From positions 124,001 through 188,000 of the forward strand of contig JAFSJJ010000044.1 of the NCBI GenBank assembly GCA_017439345.1: DNA of 64,000 nt, in the 5' to 3' direction. The notes beneath the pieces are model-generated. The model did not search any database. It worked only from the letters and a program-made list of their open reading frames with translations, and was not told the DNA's origin. Position numbers and translations under genes: made by a program. Source of the DNA: Synergistaceae bacterium (GTDB lineage Bacteria; Synergistota; Synergistia; Synergistales; Aminobacteriaceae). Position 1 is the first letter of the stretch; each line of letters opens with the position of its first letter. Positions 5,010 to 14,278 of the stretch are shown in pieces.

Positions 5010-6524
5010 TTATTTATATCCGCGTATCTTATCAGGTCTTATATTAAATTTATTTCTGCGTCTGGGAGGCAAATGCTTCTTGACATGACCACTGACTTTT
5101 TCGGGTGAGACTTCATCGATCTCTATATTCTTGTCGCTGAGTAACGAAGCTATATCCCTTGCAGAGAGTCTCTTTTCACCGCGGGTCTTGATTTCAAGAG
5201 TCAGAGTCTTTGATTGATAACTGCTCTTGATTTCTGATTCGCGTCCTGCCTGAGTCCGTATTAAGTCCTCAAGTTCGCCTGCTCTATTAAATGAGTCTAT
5301 TTCTGAGACAGTAACGTTAATAATATGAGCGTCTTCCCTGTGATGTCTGGGAGGCATTGGAGGTCTCGGCCTGTGATTTTCGCGAATAACATTGCCTGTT
5401 ATGGTCTGCTGGGTCAAGCCCGTAATCTCGATGTGATTATCAGATAAGAACGAAGCAATTTTTCTAGCTGTATTCTCTGAGACTATATCAACTTCAAGGG
5501 TGTTATTGCTGTAATCACGCTCGAAAACTTCACCGGATTTGCCTGCAAGCTCCCTGAGTCCCTCTTCAATGCGTTCAACGTCCTTGAATGAAGCTCCGGA
5601 AATTTTTATATTGACTGTTATGCCTCCCAGTGAAGAACCTGCCGATGCGAGATTATATGCTATTTTGTAAACTATCTCTTCAGCTGCTGACTTGGCCGCG
5701 ATATTGAAACATGATGCTGCTCCGCCTTCGATTGTCTGAGCCGGTCTCTTTCCTGTTGAAGCTGTTGCAGTCTTTGAGCTTATCTGATATGCCGTACGCG
5801 TTAATATAGCTTTGACTTGAACATTGCCGTTGACTCCGTAGAGTCTTATTCCGTGAACCCGTTGTGAAGCGAATGCACCTGCCTGAGCCCTTGCGACTAT
5901 GATAATATCAGCCTTGAGAGTCCTTGCTGCCCTTGATAACATTTCAGGGTCATCGAATGCCTTTGACGGATCGAGATGCAATAGATTTCGTGCCTGTTCC
6001 TGGTCAACGAGCAAATACCCTGCCTGCTCAAATATTTTTTGCAGAACGCCTTCTGTCGTTGACATAAAAGGAGTCTTTCCTGAAATTTTCTCGTCTACTA
6101 TGATCATGACTCTTGGATTGCCGAGCATTGCTATGACTTCCGGGCCTAAGACTCCATCAAGAGCTCTCTCTGAGACCTTGCACGAAGCCGTTATATTCAA
6201 CACTCCGTCAGAGTCAATATTTTGGCTTGTAACCCTGAAATCTTTTACCAGACCTGAAGACCTAGAGAAAACTTTATCCCTTGTAACAGCAAAATTTTCC
6301 ATTTCAGTGATACCCGTAACACATGCGCCAAGAGCCTTCTCGAGTGCGTCTCTATATGCCATCCTCTGAGCCTCTGAGAATGCAGCCCTTCTATTATTAT
6401 TCCTGACAGGAGCGTAACCTTCTGCATTATCTACTATGTACATTCCGCCTTCTCTTGTAACTCTTGATTCAGAAGGCACTGCTAACGATAGAATTATTAG
6501 TAACGCGCATAAAAATTTTTTCAT
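5010..6524 (-). CDS. Secreted FlgT/LPP20-like protein with a duplicated C-terminal domain
   Basis: A 504-residue exported protein with a signal peptide at 1-20. Residues about 45-125 (SEAQRMAYRDALEKALG, then NFAVTRDKVFSRSSGLVKDFRV) match the N-terminal fold shared by FlgT and LPP20 proteins. A middle domain (about 130-280) has MIIVDEK and ADIIIVARAQAG. Two copies of an ~80-residue alpha/beta unit follow, each with an INV/VNI strand, a helix, and an ASxLSDxxIEI ... GxV ending; the copies are separated by a Pro/Arg/His-rich linker. The protein ends in a basic tail. A role in an outer envelope or flagellar ring is inferred from the fold and neighbours only. Confidence 0.65.
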   Translation of the reverse strand: MKKFLCALLIILSLAVPSESRVTREGGMYIVDNAEGYAPVRNNNRRAAFSEAQRMAYRDALEKALGACVTGITEMENFAVTRDKVFSRSSGLVKDFRVTSQNIDSDGVLNITASCKVSERALDGVLGPEVIAMLGNPRVMIIVDEKISGKTPFMSTTEGVLQKIFEQAGYLLVDQEQARNLLHLDPSKAFDDPEMLSRAARTLKADIIIVARAQAGAFASQRVHGIRLYGVNGNVQVKAILTRTAYQISSKTATASTGKRPAQTIEGGAASCFNIAAKSAAEEIVYKIAYNLASAGSSLGGITVNIKISGASFKDVERIEEGLRELAGKSGEVFERDYSNNTLEVDIVSENTARKIASFLSDNHIEITGLTQQTITGNVIRENHRPRPPMPPRHHREDAHIINVTVSEIDSFNRAGELEDLIRTQAGRESEIKSSYQSKTLTLEIKTRGEKRLSARDIASLLSDKNIEIDEVSPEKVSGHVKKHLPPRRRNKFNIRPDKIRGYK

Positions 6525-7662: not shown

Positions 7663-10600
7663 ATGCACAGGAAATTTTTTATCTTCACCGCTTTACTTCT
7701 CCTCATTTGTTCACCTGCACTTGCCGAGCCCCGCTTGTGGTCAGTGCATAACAGCTACGTTACTGTTGGTTCTACTGTCGGTTCTGATGACTACTTCAAG
7801 ACAGATTTATCGACAGCAAAATTTTTAAACGTTGATCTCGAAGTTGTTGACGATAATACAGCACTTCTTCCGGATATCAACATTAATGACCGTGAATCGA
7901 TTCCCAAATTAACGATTAGTAACGGCAATTATTCTTACTTCACAGGCAGCCTTGTAGAAGAAGTTTCGGGAGGTTCAAAGACTTTCGAGATTGCACGCAC
8001 AGACACTCTCGTACATAATGAAGTCGGCTACAAGAGAACGGGATATAACACACCAGGCTACACAGCTACTAATGAAGAAGGGGACTGGGTACACTTCATG
8101 TTTAATGCTGACGGAGGCATGAACGGAGCGACAGTAACTTGGCCTGATTATGAATCATTAACAGGAGGCAGCGGAACAGTTCCGAATTTCAAGACTACAA
8201 AAGAACAGCTTGATGACATTGTGCCTTATATCGAATATTTTGGAACGCAGGCAGAAGGCTACGAGGAAGGCTGGCTTGCTGTTGAGGGCTTCAAGTGGCG
8301 TTTTGTGAAATCTTCGGACGTAACTAAAGCTGTAACTACTGACGTAAAAATAACTCTTCAGGTAATCGGCAGCTATAATCACGCTGATGATTGTGGTGAG
8401 GATGAGACATACTATGACGGTACAGGGCAGCAACCTATTGTCATTGAAGCCGGTCAACTTCTTTCAGGCGAAGTGAGATTTGAAAAGGGTAATAATGACA
8501 TGCTTTTTTATAACATGCCTAATCAGACAGTCCTGAGATATTACAAAGGTGATAACAAGGACGAATGCTATCAATGGCGTTTTATCCCTAATATGTATCC
8601 TCATAATACCCAAGACTCGAAAGACTCAGTACAGTTAGGTGCGAGTTACGGCTTCTCTGTTCCTCTCAAGAATGGGAAACCCGATTACAAATACACGCAA
8701 TACTTTGGCTCTGGTGTAGGTCTCGTAGTGTATAGGACATTTACACCTGAAATTTTAGCTGCAACAGGTAAAGCTACCATGACAATAGGCGGAGGGAATT
8801 ACTGGCTCAAGAATACCGATGATGAAAAAATCGAGGACGTTTCAGGCTCGAAGACCTACACACTTTTCAGCAGGACATCATTGTTAGACAGTTATTTCGA
8901 GTTCAACTATCTTGTGCCCGGTTACCGCAAAGTCTATTTCACTTACATCAATGACTCATACTCAACAAGAGGCGTGAACTTCATGGACGAGGCAGGCACG
9001 CTCGGCGGACAAAGTATAAGCTGGAGTTTCCCAGGTGAGGCCGACTGGATTAGCTACAGTTCAACACTCCATGAATATCAGGGCAGGGAAGAATTGCTCG
9101 CTTCAAGATATATTCCCTATGTTGAAGCAATTTCAAAGGATAATTATATTACTGAGATAAAATACGGCTTCGTTGAATCTCCTGACCTGGACGGCAGCAA
9201 ATTCGTTACACCTGAACACTTCGCGTCGATGGGTATAAATCTGATAGTCTGGGGTGAAGAAGGGACTTCAACGTTAGACTTTGACACCAAAAACAATGAT
9301 GTAATTTACAACAGTCATTCATTCAAATTAGATAATCCTATTCCTTTTAAAGCCGAATACGGTTACAGAATAGGAGTTATTGTTGATATTTATCCCGAAG
9401 TCGGCCCTACATGGGAGGATTTTAGTTCCTGGCTAGGTGAAGGTAACAGCCATCTTGACGCAAATAAAGCTATCGGATACAACTGGATATTCGATAATTT
9501 ACCGTCTGTAAGCCAAATGAACAGACTCGGTGATGATTTCGATAACGTAGCGGATAACATCGCAGACTCTCTAAGTGAAGACGTGTCGGAAATTATGCCT
9601 GTAGAACGTGAAGAAATGGGCGACGAGACGGGATTTATGCTTGATGTTATAAACGACATAGAACAGACAGAAAGCGTTGACGTTATCGGAAGATTCAAGC
9701 AGCTCAACGTTACTGAGTCAGGAACTTTCGCAGTGAAAGTTACTCTTCCTGATGAGCTATACGACGAAATAGAGGGTGCAGCTTCAAGAGATTTGGTAGT
9801 GTATCCGATTACCAATAGTGAAATTTCAGAGCCAGAATCTGAATCGGAGGCAGAGTCAGAGTCAGCCTCTGCTTCAGCTGCAAGAGTTTCCGGAGGTATC
9901 AAAGTTTCAAGACCTGTAAGGACTTCAGCGAGTAATAAATCATCAGGAAAGTTATTAGCTTCTGACGGCAAGACATTCAACACGATTGACAAGAAAGAAT
10001 TCATTCTAACAGTGCCTTTGACCAAAGCAGAATATGAAGACTACACGAATTACGGTTTGTATCTCGGCCTTAAGACAGCAAGCGACACACCGGCTCCGGC
10101 AGTCCCTGATATCAAGTCCCCTGATGAGACTCCGGACACTGAGTCACAGGATACTAAACCAGGCATTGAATCTCCTGACAACGAGCCTGAAGTTGAAGAT
10201 GACTCGCAGTATGATTATCTTAACCAGAATATTGATCCTGCTGTGAAAGCTGCAATCATGAAACTAATCAGCACTGATTACGAGATAAAAACTTTTATCG
10301 AAGCTATAAAATCTAATGACATAACGAAATATAATAACAATGTTGCAGTCAACAAGAGACACTTTGAGACAATTTCGGGCGATCTTACGAATGCAGAATT
10401 AATCAGCGTCATGCCTGCTTTCACATTCAGTGCGAACGAGCATATTGTTATCATAATGAAAGTATCTGCGGACTTGGCCAATCAGCAAGAGTTACACCTT
10501 TATACGCTCAAGGGTGCTGAGGTCGCAGGGGCAAGCCTAAAGTTCGTGAGGTTCTCGTCAAATCCCGACACCAATGAAGACTCAGGAGCGATGTTCTTTA

Positions 10601-10836
10601 ACTCTAGGGGAACAGCTAAGATAAAGACTCTGACAGAAAATATTGTTTACCTGGCTGCGGAGTTCTCGAAAGGTTCATATGCTCCGTTAGTCTTAACAGG
10701 TACGGCAAAGATTGAAGAGCCTGAAAAAACTTACTCTGATAATATACTCGGCTCATCTTCAGGAGGCTGCAATTCTGGTCTATTTGCTTCAGGTGCTTTA
10801 ATGCTCTTGTTGTTGATGTTCGTTAAGAGAAAATAA
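7663..10836 (+). CDS. Large surface protein with Synergist-CTERM-like sorting tail
   Basis: A 1057-residue exported protein. Residues 1-21 are a signal peptide (ending SPALA). Two diverged ~200-residue units follow, beginning near residues 83 and 372; each has a GNY, an SGxSKT, an RTxxL, a PGY and a PYVE element. A second part has an acidic Glu/Ser run (PESESEAESESASAS, about 722-745) and a Pro/Asp/Glu linker (about 805-855), then a beta-rich domain. The C-terminus has SSGGCNSG, a hydrophobic helix and VKRK, which fits the Synergist-CTERM sorting signal. It is inferred to be anchored at the cell surface. It is single-gene, with its own promoter and terminator. Confidence 0.85.
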   Translation: MHRKFFIFTALLLLICSPALAEPRLWSVHNSYVTVGSTVGSDDYFKTDLSTAKFLNVDLEVVDDNTALLPDININDRESIPKLTISNGNYSYFTGSLVEEVSGGSKTFEIARTDTLVHNEVGYKRTGYNTPGYTATNEEGDWVHFMFNADGGMNGATVTWPDYESLTGGSGTVPNFKTTKEQLDDIVPYIEYFGTQAEGYEEGWLAVEGFKWRFVKSSDVTKAVTTDVKITLQVIGSYNHADDCGEDETYYDGTGQQPIVIEAGQLLSGEVRFEKGNNDMLFYNMPNQTVLRYYKGDNKDECYQWRFIPNMYPHNTQDSKDSVQLGASYGFSVPLKNGKPDYKYTQYFGSGVGLVVYRTFTPEILAATGKATMTIGGGNYWLKNTDDEKIEDVSGSKTYTLFSRTSLLDSYFEFNYLVPGYRKVYFTYINDSYSTRGVNFMDEAGTLGGQSISWSFPGEADWISYSSTLHEYQGREELLASRYIPYVEAISKDNYITEIKYGFVESPDLDGSKFVTPEHFASMGINLIVWGEEGTSTLDFDTKNNDVIYNSHSFKLDNPIPFKAEYGYRIGVIVDIYPEVGPTWEDFSSWLGEGNSHLDANKAIGYNWIFDNLPSVSQMNRLGDDFDNVADNIADSLSEDVSEIMPVEREEMGDETGFMLDVINDIEQTESVDVIGRFKQLNVTESGTFAVKVTLPDELYDEIEGAASRDLVVYPITNSEISEPESESEAESESASASAARVSGGIKVSRPVRTSASNKSSGKLLASDGKTFNTIDKKEFILTVPLTKAEYEDYTNYGLYLGLKTASDTPAPAVPDIKSPDETPDTESQDTKPGIESPDNEPEVEDDSQYDYLNQNIDPAVKAAIMKLISTDYEIKTFIEAIKSNDITKYNNNVAVNKRHFETISGDLTNAELISVMPAFTFSANEHIVIIMKVSADLANQQELHLYTLKGAEVAGASLKFVRFSSNPDTNEDSGAMFFNSRGTAKIKTLTENIVYLAAEFSKGSYAPLVLTGTAKIEEPEKTYSDNILGSSSGGCNSGLFASGALMLLLLMFVKRK

Positions 10837-10841
10837 TAATA

Positions 10842-10873
10842 TTAGCCCCCAAGCTTCGGGGGTTATTTTTTTT
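10842..10873 (+). terminator. Rho-independent terminator
   Basis: CCCCC (10846-10850) pairs with GGGGG (10858-10862), extended by wobble and A-T pairs outward, followed by TTATTTTTTTT. It ends the surface protein gene and overlaps the 3' end of the convergent flagellin gene. Confidence 0.85.
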
Positions 10874-13139
10874 ATTGCAGGAGACTCAAAACGCTTCGTG
10901 GCATTCCGTTAGCCTGCGATAACATTGCTGTCCCTGACTCAGTTAATATTTGCAGTCTCACAAATTCCATCATTTCTTTAGCCATATCTGCGTCGCGAAT
11001 TCTGCTCTCTGCCTGAGAAAGATTCAAGCTCGTAGTCTCAAGGTTCTCTTCTGTCCATTCTAAGGCGTTCTGATAAGAACCTATTTTGGCTCTGTTTGAA
11101 GCAACTTTTTCTATTGCACGATCGATTAAAGTTATTGATTGAGAAGCTGACTCTCTGGTCAAAACGTTCACAGTGTCTATGCCTATTGCGTGAGCCCCCG
11201 AGTCGTCAAGCTGAATGATAAAGTCTTCGCCCATGTTAGCTCCCGTTTGAAGTATCGTTGTGTTGTCGGTCAAGTGAATTAATGTCTCGTAAGTGTCGCC
11301 CTTAGTCTGAATGAATTTCTTTGCGCTCTCTGACCATAGAGTATTAATTCCCCTCATTGAGTCAATTTTCACGTCAACGGCAGGAGTAATAAGCCCCCTG
11401 AAGTCAGCCTTTGCAGCAGTGATTCCCGAAGCTATGCACTTGTTAGAGTGGGCATCGTAAACGTTAGCTGTGAACTTGCTCTCTTGAGACTCTTGAATAG
11501 TGTTAAGTCCTAATGCATTGAGAATCTCTTCTGCGCCTGAAAAATGAATTTCACCTTCACGGCCTGTAACTACGCTGCGGATTACCAGAGTCCCGGGAAC
11601 TGACTCGCTTGTGTTCTCGATAGGATCATCATAAACGTAATTAGCAAAGTGATTCAAGTCCTGAGTATATTCTTTCTGGCCGAGTCCGTTAGCTATAGCG
11701 TCATTAATTTTTTTCGCAAACGTTGTGAGTGTGTCGCCTTTATCTATATAAATTGAAGTAGTCTTTGTGCCTTGAGTAAGCGTGATTTTTTGAGGTTCTT
11801 CAAGCAGATTAACTCCTGAAGATGATACGAAGCTCGTTAATTCCGAAAGTTTTGTATCAGGTTCAGCAGGACACGTAACGGGTTCAGTAGAGTCAGACTG
11901 CGCGTCTTCTGCAATTTTCTCTGCGAAAGTGTTTACTAGATCCGAAGCCCATGTTGATGAGCTTGAGTTAAACATCATGCCCCCTGAAGAACTCGATAAA
12001 TTATAAAACTCTCCGCTTGAATCTGTTTTAGGTCCTACAACAGTTAATTGAATATCGTCTGCTTGTGTCGTTGAGTCTCCTGCAAGTGCTTCCTGAACGT
12101 CTGACTCTGTAACACTTGAACCGCCGTGATGATCTACGTCCGTAACGAGTATCATATAACGGCTTTGAAGGACATCACTTCCCGAAATAATATTATCGTC
12201 GTAAGAATCTCTGTAATAATCCGCTGCTGTCTTGACTGCATAATAATTATTAACATCGCCGCCGTTTGCTGTAATAGGGTCAAGCAGTGCATTTATTTCG
12301 TCTATATCGCCTGACCAAAGCTCTCCGTCAGTGTACGTGTAGGCTTTCACCTGTTCATCAGCCGGGTTGCTTGTTCCGTAAGTGCATATGCCTATTTCAA
12401 CGTTGCTGACGCCTTCGGATTTTATGTTCTGAACAAATTCGCTTATGTTATCTTTGACTGCCTGAATCTTATCGCCCATTGAGCCGGATACATCGATAAG
12501 AAATAATACTTTGACTGCTTCGACTGAGGCATCACTTGAAGACTCATTAATTCTGCTCATTATGTTAGTCTTCTGAACCTGAGCCTGTCCCGGATCTGTA
12601 GTGATTTCGAGTCTGTAATTGCCCTCGTTGTTAATTTTCTGGTTGAACTGGTCAGTAATCATGAGTCCGCCGTTGATATTAACTTGAACGTTCTGATCTG
12701 TTGATGACCATGAAGCCTGGCTGCTCCCGTCAAGTAATCTTTTTCTGTTGAACTGTGTATTATGTGCAATGTTGTCAATCTGGTCTCGTAACTGGTCGAT
12801 TTCTAGCTGAATAAATCCCCTGTCCTGAGCCGTTAGAGTATCATTCGCTGACTGTACAGCAAGTTCACGCATTCTCTGAAGCATTGAGTTAATTGTCTCA
12901 AGTGAACCTTCTGCAGTCTGTAAAAACGAAATTCCGTCTTTAGTGTTCTGAGCAGCCATGTTGAGTCCCCGAACTTGAGAGCGCATTTTCTCACTGATTG
13001 CGTATCCTGAAGCGTCATCGGCAGCCGAGTTAATCCGCAGTCCTGATGATAATTTGCGTATCGAGTTCTCCATTGCCTTACTTGTCGAGTTCAGAGCATT
13101 GAATGCCCTTATAGCCGGAATGTTGTGAGTGATTCGCAT
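10872..13139 (-). CDS. Flagellin with an inserted von Willebrand factor A domain
   Basis: A 755-residue flagellin. Residues 1-140 are a standard N-terminal D0/D1 (MRITHNIPAIRAFNAL, SSGLRINSAADDASGYAIS, IDQLRDQIDNIA) and 660-755 a standard C-terminal D1/D0 (SRIRDADMAKEMMEF, LSQANGMPRSVLSLL). Between them residues about 208-411 form a complete VWA fold: VLFLIDVSGSMG with the metal site D216-x-S-x-S220, then IGICTYG, GGD (293-295) and ILVTD (D334). A flagellin_IN-like part follows (ITLTQGTKTTSIYI). The frame opens at 13154, but GGAGG sits just after that ATG and eight bases before the ATG at 13139, so 13139 is chosen. An adhesive filament is inferred. Confidence 0.92.
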   Translation of the reverse strand: MRITHNIPAIRAFNALNSTSKAMENSIRKLSSGLRINSAADDASGYAISEKMRSQVRGLNMAAQNTKDGISFLQTAEGSLETINSMLQRMRELAVQSANDTLTAQDRGFIQLEIDQLRDQIDNIAHNTQFNRKRLLDGSSQASWSSTDQNVQVNINGGLMITDQFNQKINNEGNYRLEITTDPGQAQVQKTNIMSRINESSSDASVEAVKVLFLIDVSGSMGDKIQAVKDNISEFVQNIKSEGVSNVEIGICTYGTSNPADEQVKAYTYTDGELWSGDIDEINALLDPITANGGDVNNYYAVKTAADYYRDSYDDNIISGSDVLQSRYMILVTDVDHHGGSSVTESDVQEALAGDSTTQADDIQLTVVGPKTDSSGEFYNLSSSSGGMMFNSSSSTWASDLVNTFAEKIAEDAQSDSTEPVTCPAEPDTKLSELTSFVSSSGVNLLEEPQKITLTQGTKTTSIYIDKGDTLTTFAKKINDAIANGLGQKEYTQDLNHFANYVYDDPIENTSESVPGTLVIRSVVTGREGEIHFSGAEEILNALGLNTIQESQESKFTANVYDAHSNKCIASGITAAKADFRGLITPAVDVKIDSMRGINTLWSESAKKFIQTKGDTYETLIHLTDNTTILQTGANMGEDFIIQLDDSGAHAIGIDTVNVLTRESASQSITLIDRAIEKVASNRAKIGSYQNALEWTEENLETTSLNLSQAESRIRDADMAKEMMEFVRLQILTESGTAMLSQANGMPRSVLSLLQ

Positions 13140-13162
13140 TGTTTCAGCCTCCATGTAAATTT

Positions 13163-13189
13163 TTATCGTATTGCTAAAGAATATCTTCC
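13163..13189 (-). promoter_or_regulatory. Weak sigma-28-like promoter for the flagellin gene
   Basis: On the minus strand TACGATAA (13163-13170) matches the CGATAA core of the flagellar sigma -10 element. At the expected 15-base spacing the upstream element is GGAA rather than TAAA. It overlaps the end of dprA and lies 23-30 bases before the flagellin start. This is a partial match only. Confidence 0.3.
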
Positions 13190-14278
13190 TGCTTCTCCGT
13201 TAATAAGTCCGTTTGCTTCAAGTTCTATTAAGACTCCCTGAATCGTAACGAAATCGAGTCCGCTCTCTGATAATAAATCATCGGTCGTAATTCGTTCGTG
13301 TTTCTGAATCAGCGAGTAAATAATTTTCTCCTCGTCAGAATTTAAACTTAAAGCATTTTGTGAATCTTCGTGAGATTTATTGCTATTATCGTCAAGATTT
13401 ATCTCAAACTGTGTATTTCCTGCAATCGAGTTAATGAACTCCTCAAGACTCGTTAATGCTCCTGTGCCCTTATTGAGTAACTCATTGCTGCCCTTGAAAG
13501 AGTCCTCGTTAATGCGTCCCGGAACAGATAAGACTTCGCGGCCAAGTTCGAGTCCAAGATTAGCCGTTTTCATAGCTCCTCCGCCCTCAGGAGACTCGAC
13601 GATGACGACTCGAGAAGCAAGGGCTGCGATGATTCTATTGCGTTCAGAGAATCTCCAGACCTCACCGCCGGAAGTCATGGGGTATTCTGTGATTAACGCT
13701 CCGTGTTCAAGAATTCGCGAGAATAATTCTTTGTGTTCAGCAGGATATGTTTTCTCGAGTCCAGTTCCGAACACTGCAACTGTTCTCCCGTCAAAGTCAA
13801 GACATCCCCTGTGTGCAGAAGCGTCAATGCCCTTTGCTCCTCCGCTGATGATTATTATATTTCGTTGTGAAGCCAGACTTGCGAGTCTGTAAGCAACATC
13901 ATGACCGTATGAGCTGCATTTTCTTGTTCCTACTATTGCAACCGAAGGCAGAGATAAAATATTTGCGTTCCCCCTGATATAAATTCCAATCGGAGGCTTC
14001 TTCAAGTCGCGTAACTTTTCGGGATAATCTAAATCTTGAGCCGTTATGAATCTTGCATCAAGTTTCTCTGCGTGTTCGAGTTCACGTTCTGCCCAGCCGT
14101 CTTTTGCGATAATCCCTGCGAGTCTGTTCTGAACACTTTTGCTCATCTCCAGTTCTTCCCAGAATGACTCGCCCTTGAATAAGTCTTCAGGTTCATAATT
14201 TTCACACAGCTTCATAAATATTTCATAGGGTGCTTTGATTGCGTTTAACAGCAAGCCTGCTTTTATTGTCGTATTCAT
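13163..14278 (-). CDS. dprA: DNA processing protein DprA
   Basis: A 371-residue DprA/Smf protein, which loads RecA on incoming single-stranded DNA during natural transformation. The Rossmann-like core has VAIVGTRKCSSYG, IISGGAKGIDASAH and TVAVFGTGLEKTYPAEH, followed by GALITEYP and SERNRIIAALA. A winged-helix DprA_WH domain is at the C-terminus (about 310-371). An N-terminal helical part covers 1-80. It precedes the flagellin gene by 23 bases on the same strand. Other competence genes (comEC, comEA, comF) lie elsewhere in the window. Confidence 0.94.
   Translation of the reverse strand: MNTTIKAGLLLNAIKAPYEIFMKLCENYEPEDLFKGESFWEELEMSKSVQNRLAGIIAKDGWAERELEHAEKLDARFITAQDLDYPEKLRDLKKPPIGIYIRGNANILSLPSVAIVGTRKCSSYGHDVAYRLASLASQRNIIIISGGAKGIDASAHRGCLDFDGRTVAVFGTGLEKTYPAEHKELFSRILEHGALITEYPMTSGGEVWRFSERNRIIAALASRVVIVESPEGGGAMKTANLGLELGREVLSVPGRINEDSFKGSNELLNKGTGALTSLEEFINSIAGNTQFEINLDDNSNKSHEDSQNALSLNSDEEKIIYSLIQKHERITTDDLLSESGLDFVTIQGVLIELEANGLINGEAGRYSLAIR

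Follow-up and report, generated by a model that had tools for sequence, protein, structure and literature searches.

A Synergistaceae flagellin with a predicted von Willebrand factor A domain and a conserved, nontextbook metal site in its outer slot

An open reading frame in a Synergistaceae genome joins the two conserved ends of a flagellin to a von Willebrand factor A (VWA) domain, which raises the question of whether its product is a true filament flagellin and what the domain does on it. The gene lies in the window, the whole stretch of 64,000 nucleotides analyzed here (contig JAFSJJ010000044.1). That contig is 257 kb long and comes from a genome of 2.54 Mb with a completeness of 98%. The features of the gene and its immediate surroundings, in window coordinates, are as follows.

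10872..13139 (-), gene of the 755-aa VWA flagellin, with its ATG at 13139 and the stop included (open reading frame and Pfam)
13148..13152 (-), Shine-Dalgarno-like GGAGG 5' of the ATG at 13139 (direct sequence reading)
12720..13133 (-), Flagellin_N, the N-terminal half of D0/D1, residues 3-140 (Pfam PF00669, 8e-43)
11868..12554 (-), slot between D1 and D2, residues 196-424, with different inserts in paralogues
11898..12518 (-), VWA domain as modeled, residues 208-414, with low-confidence linkers on both sides (Pfam and model)
12480..12494 (-), first metal-site (MIDAS) motif, DVSGS, residues 216-220 (D, S, and S invariant in 15/15)
12252..12254 (-), V296, at the MIDAS threonine position (T in 3/15)
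12138..12140 (-), MIDAS D334 (invariant in 15/15)
11136..11867 (-), D2-like outer framework, also present in the genome's other flagellins and in the Geovibrio flagellin 9au6
10878..11135 (-), Flagellin_C, the C-terminal half of D1/D0, residues 669-754 (Pfam PF00700, 2e-25)
13163..14278 (-), dprA, so named from its resemblance, the next gene upstream and on the flagellin's strand
10843..10865 (+), terminator-like hairpin that separates the flagellin gene from a convergent gene of 1057 aa

The flagellin gene is a single uninterrupted open reading frame on the minus strand. We preferred the start at 13139 over one at 13154 because GGAGG stands 8 bases before the former and because the relatives begin MRI..N; an earlier, sequence-only reading of this DNA had used the same start. 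That reading had also described the flagellin ends as intact, and the Pfam scan bore this out. Run on a 760-aa version of the protein (residue numbers elsewhere follow the 755-aa form), the scan found, in order and in one frame, Flagellin_N at 8-145 (8e-43), VWA at 216-406 (1.2e-10), and Flagellin_C at 674-759 (2e-25). All three matches exceed their cut-offs, the VWA match with 42.3 bits against a gathering cut-off of 23.8. The genome also holds the flagellar export gene FlhA (8.7e-267) and, at L041, FlgK/FlgL-like genes named by resemblance.

We modeled the VWA region with AlphaFold2 from 15 aligned sequences (pLDDT 88, pTM 0.86). The sequence-only reading had claimed a full VWA fold and called for a structure prediction; a VWA fold is what the prediction gave, in agreement with the Pfam match. 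The model resembles the I domains of integrin alphaM with Z of 17.2-17.4 and an rmsd of ~3 (Foldseek, VIA-align), and its structural matches comprise integrin I domains, a TFIIH subunit, a Sec24 subunit, and other VWA folds. In the full-length model, whose scores (pLDDT 80, pTM 0.51) leave the relative placing of the domains unsure, the VWA stands apart as a body of its own, spanning 213-419 in the 760-aa numbering, between two linkers of pLDDT <50.

The best structural matches of the whole chain are flagellar filaments, with the Geovibrio thiophilus flagellum (PDB 9au6) first. In a sequence comparison, 9au6 aligns with residues 2-205 and 426-754 of the window flagellin (E 6.5e-104) and not the VWA, and the VWA profile had no match in 9au6 even at E 5. 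The two proteins share a frame, with D0/D1 ends and a D2-like domain, but where the window flagellin has the VWA, the slot of 9au6 holds 262 residues of other content. The VWA is placed between D1 and D2, as expected from the outer-region position first proposed for the insert.

The metal site follows the earlier description in part. The DVSGS motif at 216-220 and the second aspartate, 334, are exactly where they had been put. D216, S218, S220, and D334 are all invariant in the 15 aligned VWA flagellins, in a domain with a mean column identity of 36% and 16 invariant columns out of 199; the chance of four preset columns all being invariant is ~3e-5. The column of the MIDAS threonine, which we located via alignment to PTMP1, has valine in the window flagellin (V296); three relatives have threonine there, and the others one of V, L, M, E, or Q. 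The DxSxS of loop 1 and the aspartate of loop 3 are therefore present and the threonine of loop 2 is not, so that the DxSxS...D core of the claimed site stands and a complete MIDAS does not (four of five residues, with Val for Thr). Judged from the alignment, the site is conserved yet not the textbook five-residue MIDAS, and it is predicted to bind metal.

The VWA flagellin is not confined to this genome. Among 188 genomes of the phylum searched for the domain (43 genomes of the window's genus were among those examined), it was found in the window's genus and hardly beyond. The VWA flagellin genes number 16 and are spread over 15 species, of which 14 belong to the window's genus and one to a sister genus (G090). 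Both flagellin ends are complete in one frame in 10 of the 16 genes, the window's included; the remainder run into the end of a contig, apart from the gene of G065, which a frame break interrupts. A VWA profile scan of 84,980 genomes, using one short pattern, yielded beyond Synergistales, among the matches listed, only VWA proteins without flagellin ends, and it sets no bound on how widely VWA flagellins occur. Such separate VWA proteins also occur in the same genus (L059 and L062-L065), and they are distantly related to the VWA of the flagellins, for which they are possible donors. Several of the five (L059, L062, L063, L064, and L065) have hydrophobic C-terminal tails.

These relatives bear on whether a frameshift or mis-assembly simply joined a flagellin to a VWA protein. 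Flagellin paralogues do break assemblies, and the contigs of several relatives end inside these genes. However, the window gene is a single open frame in the 257-kb contig, with its Shine-Dalgarno sequence and neighbors in order, and the same fusion recurs in 15 separate genomes. The sequence-only reading had named absence of the insert from relatives as a sign of an artefact; the insert is present in them, which refutes an artefact, and we regard that explanation as extremely improbable.

Other flagellin genes in these genomes are irregular. G073 has two VWA flagellins in tandem (L054:2707-9196), and in G069:C33 four flagellin matches follow one another. Broken-frame flagellin genes occur in the window's own genome (L040:4743-7950 and L043:4068-4709) and in G065, where the gene is a VWA flagellin (L049:5515-7853); decay, phase variation, or assembly error are the alternatives.

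The sequence-only reading took VWA flagellins to be undescribed, which proved mistaken. In the survey of 26,587 flagellins by Eckhard et al. (2017), vWFA appears in Table 1 as the eighth commonest insert, with 21 sequences (PMC5595980). Those proteins have the same architecture as the window gene product, with the VWA between the flagellin N and C regions; in the main text of that paper they occupy one table line (PMC5595980), and we found no analysis of their metal site, structure, or context. We found no functional or later study of a VWA flagellin in the open-access literature; papers on an Azospirillum minor flagellin and on Paenibacillus CmoA mention VWA, though not inside a flagellin. 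The VWA flagellin is thus real, conserved, and already catalogued, though it seems never to have been the subject of a study. What this analysis adds is the conserved metal core minus the threonine, the two insertion positions described below, and a set of paralogues that have the same frame but a different insert or none.

Flagellinolysin, the metalloprotease flagellin (NCBIfam NF033876), likewise carries a functional domain in the flagellin outer region, and its D2/C frame partly matches the window flagellin at 487-686 (E 6e-15). Its domain is a gluzincin peptidase, whereas the window flagellin has a VWA and no HExxH. Membership of that family was rejected, as the NF033876 score is 55.6 against a cut-off of 205 and the translation lacks HExxH.

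Our preferred reading, to which we give a probability of about 0.55, is that the gene encodes a true filament flagellin whose D1-D2 outer slot is filled by an integrin I-like VWA domain that binds a ligand at the surface. From what is known of the family, the D0/D1 ends would export and polymerize the protein via the flagellar type III system. In integrin I domains, both chain ends exit opposite the metal site. The VWA would hang at the filament surface on its two flexible linkers with the metal site outward and would bind its ligand, probably through Mg or Mn, and this binding would give the filament an adhesive or surface-sensing capacity. The VWA is most likely a surface-displayed, metal-binding, ligand-binding outer domain, and adhesion is its presumed role.

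In favor of this reading count the domain matches, the predicted VWA fold, the invariance of the four metal ligands at 36% mean identity, the low dN/dS of the VWA given below, the recurrence of the gene in 15 species, the sigma28-like promoters of three relatives' genes, and the presence of FlhA. We favor the ligand-binding mechanism because PilB of Streptococcus sanguinis, in which a VWA module is grafted on a type IV pilin, is a proven adhesin (PMC8179133), and because Mfa5 is a VWA tip protein (PMC7835359). PilB is like the window flagellin in having a VWA module on a filament subunit and unlike it in being a modular type IV pilin, a minor subunit with a functional MIDAS in an unrelated filament (PMC8179133). 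Integrin alpha I domains, Mfa5, and the SpaC pilus VWA adhesins likewise have a VWA fold with a metal site inserted in a carrier protein, but their MIDAS is complete with Thr where the window flagellin has Val. This substitution, with T in only 3/15, counts against the preferred reading. The TFIIH and Sec24 subunits among the structural matches also count against it, as the VWA serves there as a nonadhesive fold. Metal loss did not stop PilB from binding fibronectin in vitro (PMC8179133), and a working metal site would thus not prove metal-dependent adhesion. If the VWA binds ligands, the flagellum would be a long adhesive polymer, equivalent among flagella to the VWA pilins and the adhesins of pilus tips, and would show in nature how a functional domain can be loaded into the flagellin slot.

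The VWA occurs in two architectures. In the short type (~750 aa; the window, G046, G056, G065, G077, and G047), it directly fills the D1-D2 slot. In the long type (~1050-1120 aa), it begins ~200 residues further in, and the stretches flanking it match two halves of another outer domain. In L036, a flagellin from the same genome as the window, only ~14 residues and no VWA separate these halves. The VWA therefore holds two different positions in the frame, and the long type has the look of one domain inserted within another. On a tree of the D0/D1 ends, we tested whether these ends have a single origin in all the VWA flagellins and rejected it (p-AU 5e-5). Since the one-clade constraint fails, modules or ends were probably exchanged between paralogues, with a frequency that the tree, many of whose forks are unresolved, does not give.

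The genome holds about ten flagellins (L035-L044) of 450-1232 aa in 2.5 Mb. They share a common frame with slot contents of 25 to 677 aa, two of them with beta-helix repeats, and L039 (561 aa), with a slot of only 25 residues, is a natural near-empty version. All 43 genus members examined have several flagellins (2 to 14 Flagellin_N matches). Between the window flagellin and that of sister species G056, the VWA is the fastest changing segment, at 58% identity versus 81-96% for the rest; its dN/dS of ~0.2, a rough value with dS near saturation, indicates that it is maintained. By these comparisons, the VWA is changing fast, under constraint.

This variety suggests a different account, in which the VWA would be a surface decoration, interchangeable with many others and with no specific ligand, in a slot diversified for antigenic or phage escape, filament stiffness, or sheath formation. 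The range of slot contents, the several flagellins in every genus member, and the rapid change of the VWA all fit it, as does the finding that sheaths of outer domains can alter filament waveform (PMC8931119). But diversification alone would not hold four metal ligands invariant at such low mean identity, and the dN/dS also speaks against it; we consider decoration without a ligand unlikely. The genus supplies natural controls, with the same frame carrying a VWA, other inserts, or a near-empty slot, which makes the question of a ligand-binding VWA directly testable.

How much of the filament the window gene product would make up depends on its expression. The dprA stop lies 23 bases upstream of the flagellin gene, which may be read from the dprA transcript; a non-consensus promoter is a possible alternative. 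A flagellin lies 3' of dprA in the window and in G046, a flagellin without VWA occupies that place in G063 and G065, and no flagellin stands there in most of the remaining species whose flanks could be read. We searched for a sigma28-like motif, T[AT]AA-N14-17-CCGAT[AG][AT], which precedes 7 of 39 flagellins versus 0.075 expected in shuffles. Flagellins preceded by it include L036, possibly the main flagellin, with its orthologues, and three VWA flagellins of relatives. No such motif was found within 1200 bases 5' of the window gene, whose product may for this reason be a minor flagellin; the missing promoter counts against our preferred reading.

The sequence-only reading had pictured a filament with thousands of VWA domains. 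This presupposes a major flagellin, whereas the genome has about ten flagellins, a sigma28-like promoter at L036, and dprA 23 bases upstream of the window gene. It is quite possible, if short of probable, that the product is a minor or rarely expressed flagellin, either a low-abundance subunit in part of the filament or one expressed with dprA and not with the motility genes, so that the VWA would matter little for the bulk filament. The short dprA gap and the lack of a site such as L036 and its orthologues have argue for this, while the sigma28-like promoters at three VWA flagellins of relatives argue against it, and other promoter forms may have been missed. Such a subunit concerns dose and is compatible with adhesion. 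We put forward only tentatively, and as something that may well not hold, the more extended idea of a motility filament that doubles as an adhesive cable, multivalent, metal-dependent, and integrin-like, with paralogues exchanging VWA modules to give species-specific sets of surface-binding filaments.

The surrounding genes gave some minor observations. The downstream neighbors of the flagellin are conserved in sister species G056, and the convergent 1057-aa gene (7663-10836, plus strand) is absent from this otherwise matching locus. Its protein has no Pfam or NCBIfam match and ends in a hydrophobic C-terminal tail after GGCNSG, which we take to resemble a Synerg-CTERM sorting tail. The protein encoded at 5010-6524 (minus strand) weakly resembles leptospiral LipL46, at E 6e-9 and well short of the cut-off. 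The dprA frame of G065 (L124:81-2114), which adjoins a flagellin, has grown to 678 aa and contains its C-terminal stretch in repeated copies.
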